Assembly (NCBI GenBank): GCA_025060595.1
Contig: JANXBX010000005.1
Coordinates: forward strand, 68,718-132,717
Origin: Synergistota bacterium
GTDB taxonomy: Bacteria > Synergistota > GBS-1
Direction of reading: 5' to 3'
Length of the DNA: 64,000 nt
Of this stretch, positions 15,016-22,958 are shown piece by piece (the first letter of the stretch is position 1; every line of letters begins with the position of its first letter). Both the position numbers and the translations under genes were made by a program. The notes beneath the pieces were generated by a model. The model was not told the DNA's origin. It did not search any database and was given only the letters and a program-made list of their open reading frames with translations.

Positions 15016-16295
15016 GCTTAGTCATAGTGCTTTCTCTTTTAGCTTTGGGAACAATGATATTTTTGACAGGAGAGCTACCCTGGGAAAGAAAGGGGCACAC
15101 TTTGATAACCGCTCGTTTCGATTATGTAGGAGGACTCAAGGAGGGAGATGCAGTTAGAGTTGCTGGGGTAAAGGTTGGAAAGGTTCTTTCTATTTCTATA
15201 GGTGATGACGGAGTATATGTAGTTATGATGCTTTCTCCAGAGGTAAGGCTTAGAAAAGGTAGTTTATTTACCATAGGAACTGCTGGAATAGTGGGCGAAA
15301 AGTATGTGGAGATCATACCTCAATTTGAGGGGGAGCCTTTTAAACCTGGTGAAAAGGTTGAGGGGATCTCACCTTATAGGTTTGAAGAGCTTTTAGGTGA
15401 GCTAAGGTTGTCTATACAGAGATTTGGGAGAGTCATGGATGAGGTTGAGAAGCTTATAGGGGATGAAGCTTTTAGGAGGTCTATAAAGGAGGGGACACAG
15501 AGGTTGAATGAAGTTCTTGAGGAAGCTAAGGAAAGCCTTGAGAAATTCAAAGTAGCCGCAAGCAACATTGATGAAAAGGCTTCTAAGCTTATGGATGAGC
15601 TGAGACTAACGGTTTCGGAAAACAGGAAAGATATCAAGGCTTTGGTTGAAAATCTCCGTTTAACGAGCGAAAGGCTTAGGGACTTCGCTAGTAGGTTTGC
15701 TACACCTGAAAATGTTCAAATGTTGGAGGAGACTTTGCTTTCTATTAAAAAAGCAGCAGAGGAGATTTCTTCCTTAGCTAGAGGGTTTTCGGAAAGTGAT
15801 ATAAATAGGACAGTAGAGGATGTTAAGTTTACCGTAGAGGAGACGAAGAGGGTAGTAGAGAGAATTAAGACCTTAAAAGTTGAAGGAGGGGCAAGATTTA
15901 GGTATGGTAAGTCTTCATTTGTAGCGGAAGAGGAAGGGTTTACTGATGTATGGTTCAGGTTGGAGCTCCCTAATGAGCAAGATAGCTTATTTGTGGCTAT
16001 TGATGATTTAGGAGGAGAGAATGAATTTAGCTTCCTTCTTGAGAAAAAGATAGGGAGGAATTTTTCGCATAAGTTTGGAGTAATAAGGGGGGAGCCTGGC
16101 TATGCTATCTTTCACCAGGCTTCCCCGAGGTTTTCTTGGGAATTCACTTTGCGTAATGTTAAGGAGTTTGAGTTGGACCTCTCTTTGTGGTATAGGCTAT
16201 TTTATAGCAACGAGAGAAAACTCTTCCTTTTTAGCAGGTTTGATTATCAAAGTGGTGAGTTGAGACCTTCTATAGGTATAGAGTATAGGTTTTAA
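14997..16295 (+). CDS. mlaD: MlaD/MCE protein with C-terminal beta-barrel-like region
   Basis: A 432-residue protein. One N-terminal TM helix (about 5-24) is followed by a single MCE domain (about 38-120; GLKEGDAVRVAGVKVGKV), a long helical coiled-coil region (about 125-290), then about 135 residues (296-432) of alternating beta-strands, with alternating aromatic and hydrophobic residues and a terminal EYRF. A final aromatic is typical of outer-membrane barrels. E. coli MlaD is only about 180 residues. The same architecture is described for long MlaD proteins of Veillonella and other early diderms, proposed to bridge both membranes. The stop codon interlocks with that of the convergent M18 gene. 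Confidence 0.88.
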   Translation: MREVSLGLVIVLSLLALGTMIFLTGELPWERKGHTLITARFDYVGGLKEGDAVRVAGVKVGKVLSISIGDDGVYVVMMLSPEVRLRKGSLFTIGTAGIVGEKYVEIIPQFEGEPFKPGEKVEGISPYRFEELLGELRLSIQRFGRVMDEVEKLIGDEAFRRSIKEGTQRLNEVLEEAKESLEKFKVAASNIDEKASKLMDELRLTVSENRKDIKALVENLRLTSERLRDFASRFATPENVQMLEETLLSIKKAAEEISSLARGFSESDINRTVEDVKFTVEETKRVVERIKTLKVEGGARFRYGKSSFVAEEEGFTDVWFRLELPNEQDSLFVAIDDLGGENEFSFLLEKKIGRNFSHKFGVIRGEPGYAIFHQASPRFSWEFTLRNVKEFELDLSLWYRLFYSNERKLFLFSRFDYQSGELRPSIGIEYRF

Positions 16296-17623
16296 CTTTC
16301 AAAGAAAACTTTATACCCCTTTATTGCCGAAAAAAGATCTGCTTTACTCGAAATTTCGAAGGGCGAGTGCATGTTAAGTAAAGGTGGTCCACAGTCCACA
16401 ACTTCTACTCCAAATCTTGCTAGAAACTTGGCTACGGTTCCTCCTCCACCTTCATCAACCTTTCCTAGCTCGGCTGCCTGCCAAGCTATATTATTTTCAT
16501 TGAATAATCTTCTTATCCAGCCCGTGTATTCCGCATCAGCTTCGCTTCCACCGGCTTTTCCTCTTACGCCAGTAAATCTTGATATCGCAATTCCATATCC
16601 AAGTAAAGCTGCGTTTTTTATCTCGTGAACCTCCTCAAAGAGAGGGTTAACCGCAGCATGAACATCTGCTGAGATGGCCTTACTATTCCAAAGGGTTCTC
16701 TCAAGAATGAGATTAGACGAATTCCCTTCCCATTCTTCAAGAAGCTCTATTACCCACTTCCTTAGGATATTTGACTCTAGTCCGCTTATTCCAAAGCTTC
16801 CGATTTCCTCTCTATCAGCTAATATTAGGAGTATAGAGTGTTTGGGTTTTTCTACTTTCAGAAAGGCTTCTATTCCAGCAAATGCGCATATCCTATCATC
16901 TTGGCCATATCCTCCTATCATACTTTTATCAAAGCCTATATCCTGAGCTTTATAAGCTGGGACCGCCTCAATATCGGAGCTAACAAAATCTTCTTCCTCG
17001 ATATCGTATTTTTCCTTTAATATCTTCAAAATTTTAAGTTTAACTTTTTCCTTTTCCTCTTTTTCTTCCTCTATAGGCATGTTTCCAACTACGATGTCAA
17101 GGGTTTCTCCTTCTATGAATTCCGAGGCTTTTTTTTCCATCTGCTTATAAGCTAAGTGAGGTAGCAGATCAGGTATTACGAATACAGGATCTTCGCTTTC
17201 CTCTCCTATTTTCCATTCTATGATTTTGCCGTTTTCCTTTACTATCCTTCCGTGAAGAGATAAAGGTATGTTAAGCCACTGGTATTTTTTGATACCGCCG
17301 TAATAATGAGTTTCAAATAAAGCTATGCCATGCTTTTCATATAAAGGATGTACTTTAAGATCTATTCTTGGTGTATCTACGTGAGCTGCAACTATCCTTA
17401 GACCTTCTTCTAGGGGAAGTTCTCCCTTAAGTGCTACTCCTATTATTTTTTCTTTAAGCTTGAATATCCTATGGGCTTTTTCTTTAAGGGCTTTTTCAGC
17501 ATATCTTATAGCTTCCCATTCTGTCTTAACATTATTTAAAAACTCTTTAAATTTTTCACCAATTTTATAGCTTTCTTCTCTTTCCTCGGGAAGAAGCTTT
17601 TCCCATGCGCTTTTTCTCTTCAT
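16292..17623 (-). CDS. M18 family aminopeptidase
   Basis: A 443-residue M18 zinc aminopeptidase. Metal-ligand motifs are [38 protein letters not shown] and [11 protein letters not shown]18 enzymes remove N-terminal, often acidic, residues from peptides in the cytoplasm. The start overlaps the MCP stop by 4 bases, so it is the last gene of the minus-strand TRAP-transporter/MCP operon and may share the tyrosine-codon attenuator. Confidence 0.93.
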
Positions 17624-19644
17624 GCTTCGACCTCCTTTATTTGGGTTTCTTCTATCTTAAATTTTGAGATGGTTTCCTTCACGAACCTTGATATTTCCCT
17701 GAGTTCTGAAGCTGTGGAGGCTAGCTCTTCGCTAGAGGCGGTTATTTCTTGAACGCTTGCTGAAACATCCTCTATTGCTTGAGCGTTCTTTTCTGCTTTT
17801 ACGCTCACTTCATTTATTATTTTAACTACTTCTTCTGAAGTTTTAACTTCTCTCGAAATTATATCCTCAAGGTCATCGATAAGTTTTTTGGTTTCACTTA
17901 CTGAGGATATTATAGCTTCTACAGCAAGCTTTGATTCTTCTACTAAGCTTGTTCCCTTTTCTACAGCTTTACTGCTTTTGATCATGCTTTGAACTGCTAA
18001 TTCGGTGTCTTTTCTTACCTCCTCGATAAGCTTTGATATCTGCATTGCTGCTTGTCCAGAAGCTTCAGCAAGTTTTCTAACCTCTTCAGCAACTACAGCG
18101 AATCCTCTCCCTGCTTCTCCGGCTCTTGCTGCTTCTATAGCCGCATTTAAAGCTAACAGATTAGTTTGATCAGCTATACTTGTTATTAGATCGACTATTT
18201 GACTTATCTCTCTAGATCTATCTCCAAGTTTTTTTACAGCCTCTGCTGTTGAAAGAACCTCTCTTCTAATTTCGCTCATGTTTTCAATTACGTGTTGAGA
18301 GGCTTCCTTTATTTTGATAGAAGCATCTTCAGCTTTAGCAGATGCATTTCCTGTAGCTTTCACATTTTTGTAAGCTGATTCTACTATATGGGAAAGGTTA
18401 GTTAGCGCTTGAGAGGCTTGCAGTAACTCTTCTGTTTGCTTTTTGGTGTTTTCTGTAACTTCTATGATTTTTTCTGATGTTGTAGAGGTAGCTTTAGCAT
18501 TTTCTTCGCATATGTTTAATAAGATAGAGGAAGATTCGTCAAGCTTGAGGCTTCTTTGTGTTACACTGCTTATTATATCCCTAAGCGAGTTTATCATAGA
18601 GTTTAAGCTTTCACATAGGTCTCCTACTTCATCCTTTGTTAGCTTTGGTATGTAAAAAGAAAGATCTCCCAGTGCTGCTCTTTGAGCTAATCCCATAAGT
18701 CTTCTTATAGGGTTTACGATACTGTTTCCAAGTAAGATACCAATGAGAAGAAAGACAATGGCGATTACGATGCCGGCGAAAATGGACTTCTTTCTGATCG
18801 AAGATAATGGAGAAAGGATTTCTTCAAGATTTACGCCTGTTGCTACAGCTAATTTTATATCTCCGTTCTCAATATAATTTACCGCTACAAATTTTTCCTT
18901 TCCCTGAAATGCGTATCTACTGACCCTTTTTTGATTGGTTAGATCGTCTTCAAGCTTATTTAAGTTAAGCTCGCTTAAGGTTTTCCCAATATTTTCTAGT
19001 TTTGGATGGTGAACCAGCAAGCGTTTTTTAAGATCTACTATATAAGGATAAGCGCTTTCAAAACCTGTTTTGCTCTTAAGGTCTTCTTCTGATTTTTTAG
19101 TTACCTGAGATATGCTTGAAAAACGTAAAATTCCGATAAGTATTCCAAAAGTTTGAACGGGGTGTGAGAGAGCTATTCCAAACTTTTCCTCTTTTAAGTT
19201 TAGATCCAATACATTGCTTATAAAAGCTTTACCCTCTTTTCCTAAGCTTAAAGCCTTTTCTACTACTTCCCTAGGTATCTTTATGCTCTCTTCGTTTGTA
19301 GCTATCATTTTACCATTCATGTTGTAAAGCTGAAAAGCTAGAAATGAGGGATCTTCTTTAACTATCCTCATCATATCTCCTATGGCGGTTTCTGCCATAT
19401 TTATAGATATAGCAGTTAAGAAAGAACCTCTTCCACTATATTCTTTCACACTTCTAAGCTTTTCTTCAATAAATGAAGAAATTTTAGTAGCTATAAAGTC
19501 TCCCATGATGCTAAAGAACCTTATGCTTAAATTTTCCACAGTTTGTCCGCTTGTATTTACGCTTATAAATGTGGAGACTCCTAAGGGGACTAAAACGCTT
19601 ATGAGTACTAAAATTAATATCTTGAGGCGCAAGGAGGTTCTCAT
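17620..19644 (-). CDS. Methyl-accepting chemotaxis protein
   Basis: A 674-residue transmembrane chemoreceptor. TM1 (about 8-30), a periplasmic double-Cache-like sensor (about 32-285), TM2 (about 288-310, [15 protein letters not shown]), HAMP (about 312-365), then the long signalling coiled coil with the hairpin tip [20 protein letters not shown] near residues 495-515. Cache chemoreceptors often sense amino or carboxylic acids. It starts 49 bases after dctM and overlaps the M18 gene by 4 bases, linking sensing with uptake and peptide breakdown. SD GGGGGTGA precedes the ATG. Confidence 0.95.
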
Positions 19645-19692: not shown

Positions 19693-20976
19693 TCATATAA
19701 GAGTTATCTGAGGAAATAGCATGAGGAGGATTGCACCTAAAATTAATGCTATAAAGAAGGGGGTTACTCCTTTAAATATGGTTTCCATTGGAATTTCAGG
19801 GAAAATTCCTTTTATAACATAAGCGTTTATGCCCACAGGAGGGGTTATAACTCCTATCTGGGTTACAAGTACTACCATTACTCCGAACCATATTGGATCA
19901 AAGCCAAGTTTTATTACTACCGGATAAAATATTGGAATAGTTAAAAGTATCAACGCCAGAGCATCTATAAAACATCCGGATATTACATAAATCAATATTA
20001 TGAATGCCATTGCAAGATAAGGGTAATTTTCAAATTGAAGAAGCCAGCTTTGAAGAGCTTGAGGTAGTCTTGTTATGGCCAGAAAGTGACCAAATACGGC
20101 TGCTCCTGCAACTACAAAGATTATCATACATGATATCCTGACACTCTCTTGAAGTGAGCGTTTTATTCCTTCCCAGGATATCCTTTTTCTTAGAAGAGAG
20201 ATGATCCCTATTAATCCAGTTCCTACTGCTCCTGCTTCAATAGGAGTGAAGATTCCCTTTAGTAAACCTCCGACAACTAAAAGGAATATGAGCAAAACCT
20301 CAGAAGCGCTTAAAAGAGAAAAGAGCCTTTCTTTCCATGAACTTTTAGGGCTTTTAGAGGCTATCTGAGGGTCTATTTTAGCCCATACATATATAGCTAT
20401 GGAGAAGAGAATTGAAAGCATTATTCCTGGGAGTATCCCGGCTATAAATAGTTTTCCAATGGATTGTTGAGTTAGTATACCGTATATTACGAATATTACG
20501 CTAGGGGGGATCATTATTCCTAGACTTCCCCCAGCAGCTACACATCCAGCAGCTAGAGATTCGGAGTATCCATATCTTTTCATTTCGGGTAATGCTACCA
20601 TAGCCATTGTAGCGGTAGAAGCGTTTGTTGACCCACATATAGCTGCAAATCCTGCGCTCGCCCATATAGTAGCTATAGCTAGCCCACCAGGTAAGTGTCC
20701 TATGAGTTTATTAGATGCCTCATATAGCCTTTTACTCATTCCAGAATTGTGAGCTAGTTGTCCCATAAGCACGAATAGGGGAATTACTCCCAATGTGTAA
20801 GAGTTAAATGAGGAGAAAAAGTCAACTGCAAGCAGCTTCATTGCTGCGGGAAATGAAACTAGTAATCCAAATCCAATAAATCCAACGAGAGCCATAGCTA
20901 TAGCTACTGGTATCTTTAGTAAAAAAAGTAGTATTAGGGTGAATGTGCCGATTGCCCCTAAAAATAAGGGGGTCAA
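19693..20976 (-). CDS. dctM: TRAP transporter large permease
   Basis: A 427-residue DctM-family subunit with about 12 hydrophobic segments. It is the sodium-coupled transport channel of a tripartite ATP-independent periplasmic transporter. Characteristic blocks are AGFAAICGSTNASTATMA, LAAGCVAAGGSLGIMIPPS and GVITPPVGINAYVIKG. Overlaps dctQ by 4 bases. Confidence 0.96.
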   Translation of the reverse strand: MTPLFLGAIGTFTLILLFLLKIPVAIAMALVGFIGFGLLVSFPAAMKLLAVDFFSSFNSYTLGVIPLFVLMGQLAHNSGMSKRLYEASNKLIGHLPGGLAIATIWASAGFAAICGSTNASTATMAMVALPEMKRYGYSESLAAGCVAAGGSLGIMIPPSVIFVIYGILTQQSIGKLFIAGILPGIMLSILFSIAIYVWAKIDPQIASKSPKSSWKERLFSLLSASEVLLIFLLVVGGLLKGIFTPIEAGAVGTGLIGIISLLRKRISWEGIKRSLQESVRISCMIIFVVAGAAVFGHFLAITRLPQALQSWLLQFENYPYLAMAFIILIYVISGCFIDALALILLTIPIFYPVVIKLGFDPIWFGVMVVLVTQIGVITPPVGINAYVIKGIFPEIPMETIFKGVTPFFIALILGAILLMLFPQITLI

Positions 20977-21473
20977 GCTTTTTCCCTCCCTAGTTTTCTC
21001 ATTTCTATTTGGATTTTTTCAGTTAGTTTTATCTTTTCTAAGAGAGGGGAAACTCCATTTATGAGGGCGAAGCCTACACATATTCCGATAATTGCGTAAC
21101 TTAAATACAAAGGTATCCCAAGAGTCATTGAAACTTCACCTGAAGCTTTAGAATTTAGGCTTGAAAAGACCATACTTATAGAGAGTACAGCTAAAAATAA
21201 GGTTGTAATTGTGTGCGATAGGCGTTCTACAAGCTTCAACTTATGTTTTGACAAGATTTTGTCTATTAGGTCTATTTTTATCTGTGTTTCACTTTGAAAA
21301 CTTTTGAGGATAGCCAGTGATAGCATTAAAGAGGTGAGAAACTCCGCTATGTCATAGCTACCAGGTATGGGATACCTAAATAATCTAAGTATAACATCAA
21401 TGCATATTAAAGCAGTTAAGAATCCTAAGACAAGGGCAGAAAGCAAGTTTAGCTTACTTCCAAGCCATTTCAT
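20973..21473 (-). CDS. dctQ: TRAP transporter small permease
   Basis: A 166-residue DctQ-family subunit with four predicted TM helices (first at about 12-30). It pairs with DctM and is needed for transport. Overlaps of 4 bases with dctP and with dctM show a tightly coupled operon. Sequence is weakly conserved, as is usual for this subunit; context makes the call. Confidence 0.9.
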   Translation of the reverse strand: MKWLGSKLNLLSALVLGFLTALICIDVILRLFRYPIPGSYDIAEFLTSLMLSLAILKSFQSETQIKIDLIDKILSKHKLKLVERLSHTITTLFLAVLSISMVFSSLNSKASGEVSMTLGIPLYLSYAIIGICVGFALINGVSPLLEKIKLTEKIQIEMRKLGREKA

Positions 21474-22486
21474 TTTTTAGTTTCCTCCTTTATAAGTTTT
21501 TTAAGGGTTTCTATTGCTTCTTTTCCGGGAACTCCTTTTTTCTGGATCTCATTCATGTACTCATCTATTACAGGTTCTACCGCTTTTCTCCATCTTTCAT
21601 GTTCATCGTCAGGAAGGGATATTATTTCGTTTCCCAAGCTTAGCGTAAACTCCTTACCCTCTAAATCGCTTTCATCCCATGCTTTTCCGTGTTTTTCTAC
21701 CCAATCTATGCTTATCTCTTCTAAAATCTTCTTCACATCTTCTGGAAGATTTTCCCATTTCTTTTGATTCATGACTACATACATCCCAGTTGTATAGCCT
21801 ATCTTTGTACACATTATGGTGTGTTTTATCACTTCAGCTTGTTTCCAACCTTTCAAGGTTTCCATCGGGGCGAAAGTAGCTTCAACGATTCCTTTTTGAA
21901 GAGCCTCATATGCCATGCCCTGACTCATGGCTACTGGGACACCTCCTAAGGCTTTAGCAACTTTTGCACTAAATCCGGTAGTTCTTATCTTAAGTCCCTT
22001 TAGATCTTCAAGCTTATTTATTTTTATTTTAGAGTGAAGTATGCCAGGGCCATGGGCGTGTAAATATAGTACTTTGACTCCAGATAATTCTTTTGGATTT
22101 ATCATGTTAAAGTATCTGTTAATCACTTTGGTTGCTGTTGTACCATCTGGGTAACCTAGAGGGAGATCGACGGCTTCCATAAGAGGGAATCTCCCACTTG
22201 TGTAGGCGAAACAAGACATACCTATATCTGCTATTCCATTCAATACGCCTTCAAAGATGTTAGGTCCTTGAAGTAGAGCACCTCCGGGAAAGTAAGATAT
22301 TTCGACTTTTCCGTTGCTTCTTTTACCTACTTCCTTTATCCAGCTTTCAGCTAGGATAGATTGTATGTGAGATGGGGGAAAGAAATTTGCGTAAGATAAT
22401 TTTATAACTCCCTCTGCTGAATTTAAAGGATTACCCAATCCTATTATTAAGCCTAGAAATACGCTTATTAATAATAGTTTCTTCAC
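21470..22486 (-). CDS. dctP: TRAP transporter substrate-binding protein
   Basis: A 338-residue DctP-family periplasmic binding protein with a signal peptide (LLLISVFLGLIIGLG). SYANFFPPSHIQS follows, and the substrate-carboxylate region includes KGLKIRTTGFSAKVAKALGG with the conserved Arg. The ligand cannot be read from sequence. GTG start at 22486 with SD GGGGGT 7 bases upstream (an ATG at 22493 is out of frame). The upstream tyrosine-codon leader suggests the ligand may be tyrosine, a related aromatic acid, or another amino-acid derivative; that is inference. Confidence 0.94.
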   Translation of the reverse strand: MKKLLLISVFLGLIIGLGNPLNSAEGVIKLSYANFFPPSHIQSILAESWIKEVGKRSNGKVEISYFPGGALLQGPNIFEGVLNGIADIGMSCFAYTSGRFPLMEAVDLPLGYPDGTTATKVINRYFNMINPKELSGVKVLYLHAHGPGILHSKIKINKLEDLKGLKIRTTGFSAKVAKALGGVPVAMSQGMAYEALQKGIVEATFAPMETLKGWKQAEVIKHTIMCTKIGYTTGMYVVMNQKKWENLPEDVKKILEEISIDWVEKHGKAWDESDLEGKEFTLSLGNEIISLPDDEHERWRKAVEPVIDEYMNEIQKKGVPGKEAIETLKKLIKEETKK

Positions 22487-22516: not shown

Positions 22517-22560
22517 AAATAAAAAAAACCGCCACCCGGGAAAGGTGGCGGTTTTTTTTA
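22517..22560 (-). terminator. Intrinsic terminator/attenuator hairpin before dctP
   Basis: Perfect 9-bp GC-rich stem: ACCGCCACC (22528-22536) and GGTGGCGGT (22544-22552) around a 7-base loop, with A/T runs of 8 or more on both sides, so it can act in both directions. On the minus strand it sits between the leader-peptide stop codon and the dctP SD, exactly where an attenuator belongs. Confidence 0.93.
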
Positions 22561-22582
22561 TCAGAATTGCCGAGGAAGGAGC

Positions 22583-22699
22583 TTACCTCAGCAATAACGC
22601 AGCCAGCCTTTCCCGCAACTTGGCGGGCTTAAGATAATAGTAATAATAATAGTAAACGCAATAAGACTTATCCTTGAGGCTGACTGCGTTTATTATCAT
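22583..22699 (-). CDS. Leader peptide with seven consecutive tyrosines
   Basis: A 38-residue ORF starting ATG at 22699, 8 bases after AAAGGGG, and ending TAA at 22583-22585. Residues 16-22 are all Tyr (codons TAC TAT TAT TAT TAC TAT TAT at 22654-22634), with another Tyr at residue 13. The peptide starts MIINAVSLKDKSYCV and ends in a Leu/Arg/Ala-rich stretch. Seven codons for one amino acid before a terminator recalls the His and Phe operon leaders of enteric bacteria. The ORF is below usual gene-calling length. Stalling when charged tRNA-Tyr is scarce would be predicted to allow readthrough into dctP. Confidence 0.8.
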   Translation of the reverse strand: MIINAVSLKDKSYCVYYYYYYYLKPAKLRERLAALLLR

Positions 22700-22722
22700 G
22701 CTTATATCCCCTTTCGCTTAAG

Positions 22723-22751
22723 TTTATATCACAGTGAAGAGACCGTGTCAA
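22723..22751 (-). promoter_or_regulatory. Sigma-70-type promoter for the leader-dctPQM operon
   Basis: On the minus strand: -35 TTGACA (22746-22751), a 17-base spacer, then -10 TATAAA (22723-22728) with a TGn extension. The predicted start near 22717 lies just upstream of the leader peptide's SD, giving an 18-base 5' untranslated region. Confidence 0.85.
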
Positions 22752-22882: not shown

Positions 22883-22958
22883 GTGCCTGTAGCTCAGTGG
22901 ATAGAGCGTTGGACTCCGGATCCAAAGGTCGCGGGTTCAAATCCCGCCAGGCACGCCA
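22883..22958 (+). tRNA. tRNA-Arg (anticodon CCG)
   Basis: Complete cloverleaf of 76 bases with encoded CCA. Acceptor stem GTGCCTG/CAGGCAC, D-stem GCTC/GAGC, anticodon stem TTGGA/TCCAA with loop CTCCGGA (anticodon CCG at 22916-22918, reads CGG), T-arm GCGGG TTCAAAT CCCGC, discriminator G. It lies upstream of rpoB, with its own promoter. Confidence 0.98.

Follow-up and report, generated by a model that had tools for sequence, protein, structure and literature searches.

The leader upstream of a TRAP transporter operon in a Synergistota bacterium very probably acts as a ribosome-mediated attenuator of transcription, which responds to the level of charged tRNA-Tyr and controls the uptake of tyrosine or of an aromatic precursor. 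In four genomes (that of the window, i.e. the entire stretch of 64,000 nucleotides analysed here, and three others, among them GBS-1, together referred to as the family) a leader open reading frame (ORF), whose translation is predicted from the sequence, lies between a promoter and the operon and has a Shine-Dalgarno sequence, and an intrinsic terminator sits between this ORF and the first structural gene (Table 1). A tyrosine-codon attenuator had already been proposed in the initial annotation of this DNA, and this reading is supported by the presence of the leader in all four genomes, by covarying stems, by sibling leaders upstream of aroE-aroD and, under the classical assumption on the stalled ribosome, by masked folding of six out of seven leaders. 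Sequence comparison shows the parts of the leader, their conservation, their mutually exclusive pairings and the kinship with the aroE-aroD leaders, and each of these is considered below.

Table 1. Features of the tyrosine-codon leader and of the operon following it (positions in the window)
Feature	Position	Strand	Details
Promoter	22723..22751	(-)	-35 TTGACA 22751-22746, 17 nt, extended -10 TGA-TATAAA 22728-22723
Shine-Dalgarno sequence of leader peptide	22708..22714	(-)	AAAGGGG; from sequence
Leader peptide ORF	22583..22699	(-)	MIINAVSLKDKSYCVYYYYYYYLKPAKLRERLAALLLR-stop, 38 codons; ATG 22699, TAA 22585-22583
Tyr control codons	22634..22654	(-)	seven consecutive: TAC TAT TAT TAT TAC TAT TAT
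Strand A	22690-22678	(-)	AACGCAGUCAGCC; upstream of Tyr codons; pairs with D
Strand D	22608-22596	(-)	GGCUGGCUGCGUU; partner of A; overlaps 3' part of antiterminator strand
Hairpin P2	22612..22627	(-)	CCCGC/GCGGG, 5 bp; 3' arm overlaps antiterminator strand
Hairpin P3	22567..22594	(-)	UUGCUGAGG/CCUCGGCAA, 9 bp; stop codon in loop
Antiterminator 5' strand	22602..22614	(-)	GGGAAAGG-c-UGGC; complementary to terminator 5' arm and loop in 7/7 leaders
Antiterminator 3' strand	22538..22549	(-)	GCCACCUUUCCC; terminator 5' arm and loop
Intrinsic terminator	22521..22557	(-)	CCGCCACC-UUUCCCG-GGUGGCGG and U run; kept in 7/7 leaders
dctP, TRAP solute-binding protein	21470..22486	(-)	Pfam DctP; GTG start 22486
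dctQ, TRAP small permease subunit	20973..21473	(-)	Pfam
dctM, TRAP large permease subunit	19693..20976	(-)	Pfam
Methyl-accepting chemotaxis protein	17620..19644	(-)	Pfam; same place in GBS-1
M18 aminopeptidase	16292..17623	(-)	Pfam; same place in GBS-1

The anatomy of the leader agrees largely with the initial annotation, which had described on the minus strand a TTGACA-17-TATAAA promoter with a TGn extension, an ATG with a good Shine-Dalgarno sequence opening a 38-codon ORF, seven consecutive tyrosine codons, a stop codon inside a hairpin loop and a strong terminator with dctP 30-odd bases further on. All of these elements were recovered, the position given for the tyrosine codons was exact, and dctP starts 34 nt beyond the terminator; the distance between promoter and ATG, annotated as 18 bases, is 23 nt when counted from the end of the -10 box. 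The promoter motifs TTGACA, TGTG and TATAA are unchanged across the four family genomes, and the leader ORF contains one more tyrosine codon located ahead of the seven-codon run. That the element is not a chance arrangement is indicated by the counts of such runs: two sites in the 1.86-Mb genome have five consecutive TAY codons, and among the 30 loci with such a run in the phylum, a short ORF together with a terminator was found only in the leaders of this family and at two further loci, L112 and L118. A tRNA-Arg(CCG) gene (22883-22958, plus strand) is located immediately past the promoter of the attenuator and on the other strand, followed by rpoB-rpoC.

The RNA of the leader is predicted to fold in alternative ways. 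Strands A and D form a helix of 13 bp, including one G-U pair, around the tyrosine run, so that the 13-bp 1:3 helix annotated earlier is real, while the annotated 8-bp 1:2 pairing was not found and is replaced by two hairpins, P2 of 5 bp and the stop-codon hairpin P3 of 9 bp, the latter being predicted in all four Tyr leaders. For the antiterminator, the position of CGGGAAAGG at 22615-22607 was confirmed and both proposed strands exist, but the pairing is longer than the 9 bp first assigned: GGGAAAGG-c-UGGC pairs with GCCA-CCUUUCCC over 12 bp with one bulge, which is long enough to take most of the G+C-rich 5' arm of the terminator.

These pairings were evaluated in an alignment of seven leaders, comprising the four Tyr leaders of dctP and three leaders of aroE-aroD. 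The terminated fold (A:D, P2 and terminator) pairs in 98% of the alignment cells, and 7 out of 31 pairs show changes on both sides, compared to a mean of 2.2 in shuffled alignments, none of which reached 7 in 500 attempts; sliding the structure by one to three columns left 0 or 1 such pairs. Changes on both sides affect 5 of the 13 pairs of A:D, and in the family genome G001 P2 has the compensatory form CCCAC/GUGGG. Both upstream pairings that exclude the antiterminator as long as no ribosome is stalled thus covary. The antiterminator itself pairs in 100% of the cells and is invariant save one C-G/U-G pair, and because this invariance leaves no room for covariation, the argument for it comes from its conservation and from a shuffle test, in which its complementarity exceeded that of 200 out of 200 shuffled sequences (z of -4.6 and -3.7).

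The very strong conservation of the core, GGGAAAGG...CCUUUCCC, and the covariation of A:D and P2 would also suit a metabolite-binding riboswitch or a protein-binding leader, in which the ORF plays no part in regulation or serves a different purpose. However, the core has to form two alternative pairings, which accounts for its conservation, and every leader includes an ORF with a Shine-Dalgarno sequence, whose aromatic codons always occupy the same position, between A and P2. In addition, at the gathering score Rfam reports for the whole window two tRNAs only and no known RNA family, T-box included. With an E-value of up to 10, the leader obtains only sub-threshold Rfam matches, among them those to Phe_leader (23.1 bits, gathering score 55), Trp_leader (13.9 bits, 41), Leu_leader (21.7 bits, 50) and Thr_leader (26.5 bits, 55). 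A riboswitch or protein-binding leader is therefore a very unlikely explanation.

A further view of the attenuator is provided by masked folding, in which the probability of the antiterminator is taken before the 3' arm of the terminator is made. This probability is 0-0.04 without a ribosome and rises to 0.43-1.0 in six out of seven leaders when a ribosome is placed at the tyrosine or aromatic codons and all RNA 5' of its front is treated as unavailable; the aroE-aroD leader of G001 fails even under this lenient assumption. If only the footprint of the ribosome is masked, strands A and D can still pair around it, so that most leaders do not free the antiterminator. This failure may lie in the limitations of an equilibrium model, or strand A may have to be covered by a queue of ribosomes; with footprint-only masking, the modelled switch would then need queued ribosomes, steric blockage or kinetics.

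From these elements we infer the direction of the response and the positions of the ribosome, as well as the extent of the transcript and the ligand discussed further below. Without a ribosome, or after normal ribosome release, A would pair with D, P2 and P3 would form, the terminator would fold and the operon would be off. When charged tRNA-Tyr is scarce, a ribosome would wait at the tyrosine run, where it, or a ribosome queued behind it, would bar A from pairing and, at the last tyrosine codons, also occupy the 5' arm of P2. The freed GGGAAAGG-c-UGGC strand could then pair with the 5' arm and loop of the terminator as soon as these are made, allowing RNA polymerase to read into dctPQM, the chemoreceptor gene and the M18 aminopeptidase gene. 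The transporter would probably take up an aromatic carboxylate that relieves the tyrosine shortage, either tyrosine or one of its precursors, for example 4-hydroxyphenylpyruvate or 4-hydroxyphenylacetate.

In all four family genomes the dctP ortholog (68-81% identical) is preceded by the leader, and the comparison of related genomes yielded both the ORF with its tyrosine codons in each of them and covarying stems. While no family genome has a dctP locus lacking the leader, such loci do exist among distant homologues outside the phylum (46-57% identical); several of these are located in aromatic-degradation clusters, and a different regulation there is thus unsurprising. The tyrosine runs of the four genomes read VYYYYYYYL, YYAYYYYYYLY, YYYAYYYFYYY and YRYYYYYL. 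Pairwise comparison of the codons at the final six positions of the run gives seven synonymous and three non-synonymous differences, although for a tyrosine codon only one in seven non-stop single-base changes is synonymous; tyrosine codons are thus retained mostly by synonymous change. P2, the antiterminator strands and the terminator are likewise kept in the four genomes. In G001, a 4-nt deletion after the tyrosine run causes the rest of the peptide to be read in another frame, yet the RNA strands are retained and a TGA takes the place of the TAA at the same position. This indicates that the tyrosine codons and the RNA are kept, and not the remaining peptide. Conservation of the ORF in four genomes could in principle reflect a small functional peptide, with the terminator only tuning expression, but the C-terminus out of frame in G001, where the RNA is conserved, and an N-terminus that differs among the genomes make this scarcely conceivable.

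When the four genomes were searched for the conserved core, three proved to contain it twice, the additional copy being located upstream of aroE-aroD, which encode shikimate dehydrogenase and type I 3-dehydroquinase according to Pfam. The RNA core of these leaders is the same as that of the dctP leader, and their peptides (...NVWFVYYYYFYFTWPAK..., ...NVWFSFNYYYFYFTWPAK... and ...NVWFSFYYYFYFTWPAK...) contain a mixture of Trp, Phe and Tyr codons. This is expected, since aroE and aroD feed all three amino acids, and it ties the codons to the regulated pathway. The aroE-aroD sibling is the strongest single argument that the codons name the sensed amino acid, and the dctP leader is part of a wider set of aromatic leaders.

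This observation also bears on the nature of the signal. The anatomy of an attenuator alone names no signal, and a run of bulky residues could conceivably slow any ribosome, so that the ORF might stall whenever translation slows in general, or when a small molecule arrests the nascent Tyr-rich peptide, as in TnaC- or Erm-like systems. We consider this unlikely, as the Trp, Phe and Tyr codons of the siblings match their pathway and the peptide outside the tyrosine run is not conserved, as seen from the frame shift in G001, which argues against a specific arrest peptide. Similarly, UTP-sensing attenuation of the pyrBI type, with the U-rich run pausing RNA polymerase and the tyrosine codons as a by-product, might be suspected from the base composition of the run and from a sub-threshold Rfam match to PyrR (30.8 bits, with 54 needed). 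However, the run is kept as tyrosine codons with C at several third positions, the siblings have UGG and UUU codons at the same place, and the operon is without a pyrimidine gene, which renders this reading extremely improbable. Sensing of charged tRNA-Tyr thus is the interpretation we prefer.

Several other loci with aromatic leaders were noted. The paralogous Trp/Phe/Tyr attenuator upstream of aroE-aroD is located at L050 (G000:C1:177252-177413, minus strand; operon at L169:4950-10776); on the same strand after aroE-aroD, genes resembling a tripartite tricarboxylate-type transporter and an IclR regulator (named by eye) are found, which suggests uptake of shikimate-type acids. At L118 (genome G082) a Tyr/Phe-rich leader with a terminator precedes aroA (EPSP synthase), and at L112 (G071) one precedes a phenylacetate-CoA-ligase-like gene. 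The paaK genes of G000 and GBS-1 are preceded by short aromatic-rich ORFs (MRQHYVVYLFVFYFRCLGSPV-stop and MKVSMNLCVFRFYFSWKGSPA-stop; L047 and L031, reverse complement), which start a few bases past the -10 box, show no clear Shine-Dalgarno sequence and are followed by a strong terminator; judged by their sequence, these might represent possible leaderless attenuators.

The gene order dctP-dctQ-dctM followed by the chemoreceptor and M18 aminopeptidase genes is conserved in GBS-1, and the latter two are probably located on the same transcript as dctPQM. The window's genome contains 22 DctP-like matches, and the leader singles out one of them as tied to tyrosine. More generally, control codons name the shortage to be relieved and thereby give one of the few clues to what uncharacterised transporters carry. 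The AlphaFold model of this DctP (mean pLDDT 87) matches its best group of PDB structures with Z of 34-38, compared to about 31 for the next solute-binding proteins. This group includes proteins titled "specific for aromatic acid ligands" as well as TarP with coumarate, caffeate, ferulate, cinnamate and 4-hydroxyphenylacetate; the top two matches are 4n6d and 4nap. The protein combines a Pfam DctP domain with a closest structural likeness to a group containing aromatic-acid-binding proteins. We know of no TarP-type solute-binding protein under the control of a tyrosine attenuator. Although the model matches TarP-type proteins (7nsw, 7nqg, 5i5p) at these Z values, sequence identity is 25-33%, and the ligands of TarP are aromatic acids, whereas for DctP the ligand is deduced from its relatives. 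TRAP solute-binding proteins possess a selectivity arginine (PMC4646407), which in DctP is plausibly the invariant R168, a position we assigned from the sequence.

The genomic context of the operon and its homologues points in the same direction. The anaerobic aromatic-degradation genes oah and had, which score above the NCBIfam cut-offs, adjoin a distant operon homologue (L034), and a PaaK-like ligase, below the cut-off, adjoins another one (L033). In GBS-1, paaK (best NCBIfam match TIGR02155, under its cut-off) is located divergently next to the Tyr-leader operon and has its own aromatic-rich leader. Taken together, the structural matches, the neighbours of the homologues and the paaK context suggest an aromatic carboxylate as the likely ligand of DctP, as far as can be judged from relatives at this level of identity; tyrosine, 4-hydroxyphenylpyruvate and 4-hydroxyphenylacetate all fit, and none is favoured. 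TyrA was found in three out of four genomes including that of the window, and import thus need not be the sole source of tyrosine there. For GBS-1 (G003), whose genome is 98% complete, no match to PF02153 (TyrA) was obtained; chorismate synthase and the IOR alpha subunit are present.

Leader-peptide attenuators are well known from the his, pheA, trp, thr, leu and ilv operons of enteric bacteria. They share with the dctP leader a promoter, regulatory codons lined up in a short ORF, and an antiterminator and a terminator of which only one can form, as well as an off state, here predicted, when the amino acid is plentiful; here, in contrast, tyrosine alone would regulate, the target is a TRAP transporter operon and the organism belongs to another phylum. 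The his attenuator has been summarised (PMC9413887), and before 2010 leader-peptide attenuators were known only from Proteobacteria and Actinobacteria, with Firmicutes added then (PMC2965389). The AroR leader of Corynebacterium glutamicum aroF (PMC11802643) also exerts attenuation of aromatic genes and has tyrosine among its codons. It differs by a single Phe-Tyr-Phe motif, by responding to Phe and not to Tyr, and by its biosynthetic target. Stav et al. (2019) predicted uORFs with Phe and Tyr codons at shikimate genes (PMC6429828), and the main text, which leaves the organism of the two uORFs unnamed, also covers the genome of Thermovirga lienii, a member of the Synergistetes; uORFC-13-1 at aroF is another predicted uORF attenuator (PMC8632094). 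Like the dctP leader, both are predicted attenuators, and their codons are for Phe and Tyr (or for Phe); their targets, in contrast, are biosynthetic, and the main texts mention neither a Tyr-only run nor a transporter target. The initial annotation knew of no described Tyr-run attenuator for a TRAP transporter, and in the open-access literature searched, which leaves most subscription-journal papers aside, we found no Tyr-run leader of a transporter either. The type of mechanism is thus classical, and its specificity for tyrosine alone, its transporter targets and the phylum appear to be new within the literature searched. Leader-peptide attenuation would thereby gain a case with tyrosine as the sole amino acid, targets among the TRAP and SSS transporters, and a phylum for which no such system was found described.

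Tyrosine leaders are also present elsewhere in the phylum. With a covariance model of the leader, the seven leaders obtain 149-177 bits and no other site in 185 genomes exceeds 36 bits, and phage records gave no match to the leader. The weak matches in other families include several Tyr leaders and many terminators or antisense palindromes, and as the model includes the tyrosine run, they do not represent independent proof of a common origin. Several of them are Tyr-run leaders upstream of a sodium:solute symporter (PF00474), for which we found 26 orthologs in 16 genera (L137-L162); in the family of the window, this symporter was not found at the search threshold. A leader peptide with a Shine-Dalgarno sequence is located about 300-380 nt upstream of the symporter at all 24 loci with readable upstream DNA, nearly all of which have a terminator. 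Among nine codons, at least four encode tyrosine in 20 of these leaders, three in three leaders and two in one. A CCCG..CGGG hairpin is common to many of these leaders, with a 3' arm complementary to the loop of the terminator, in many of them as CCUCGGG versus CCCGAGG when the alignment is inspected by eye; taken singly, the strength of their antiterminators is mostly within the range of shuffled sequences. The symporter and dctP leaders are thus similar in their sequence design, and this likeness is one of design rather than of demonstrated descent. At least sometimes, a small ORF is found between the Tyr leader and the symporter.

With two unrelated transporters preceded by similar leaders in different families, conservation of regulation across transporter replacement becomes directly testable. 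It is possible, although we put this forward tentatively and consider it rather doubtful, that tyrosine attenuators serve the phylum as a transferable control module for aromatic salvage, in which the kind of leader is kept and the transporter exchanged (a sodium symporter in several families, the aromatic-acid TRAP transporter here), while sibling leaders control aroE-aroD and paaK. Under tyrosine shortage, hydroxyaryl acids would be imported and converted back into tyrosine by PaaK, an indolepyruvate-type oxidoreductase and a transaminase. If true, this route could sustain members like GBS-1, in which TyrA was not found.

Some further leaders were noted in the course of the analysis. A second, different SSS transporter (PF00474) with a Tyr leader (MMGKAFINNRYYYCYYAYPRMYNAPGLFAVSLK-stop) is present at L085 and L089. 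A Lys-rich leader (VINLKAHLSKSLLKRNKGYKKPKLRAWEGGFIASALG-stop) precedes a LysX-like ATP-grasp gene at G000:C6:115025-115148 (minus strand), L065 and L171, where GGGAAGGTG is complementary to CACCTTCCC of the following terminator, making it a candidate lysine leader-peptide attenuator. At L091 (G181:C115:3655-3795), proC is preceded by a possible proline attenuator, made up of a terminator and a short ORF in which several codons are for Pro and Cys.
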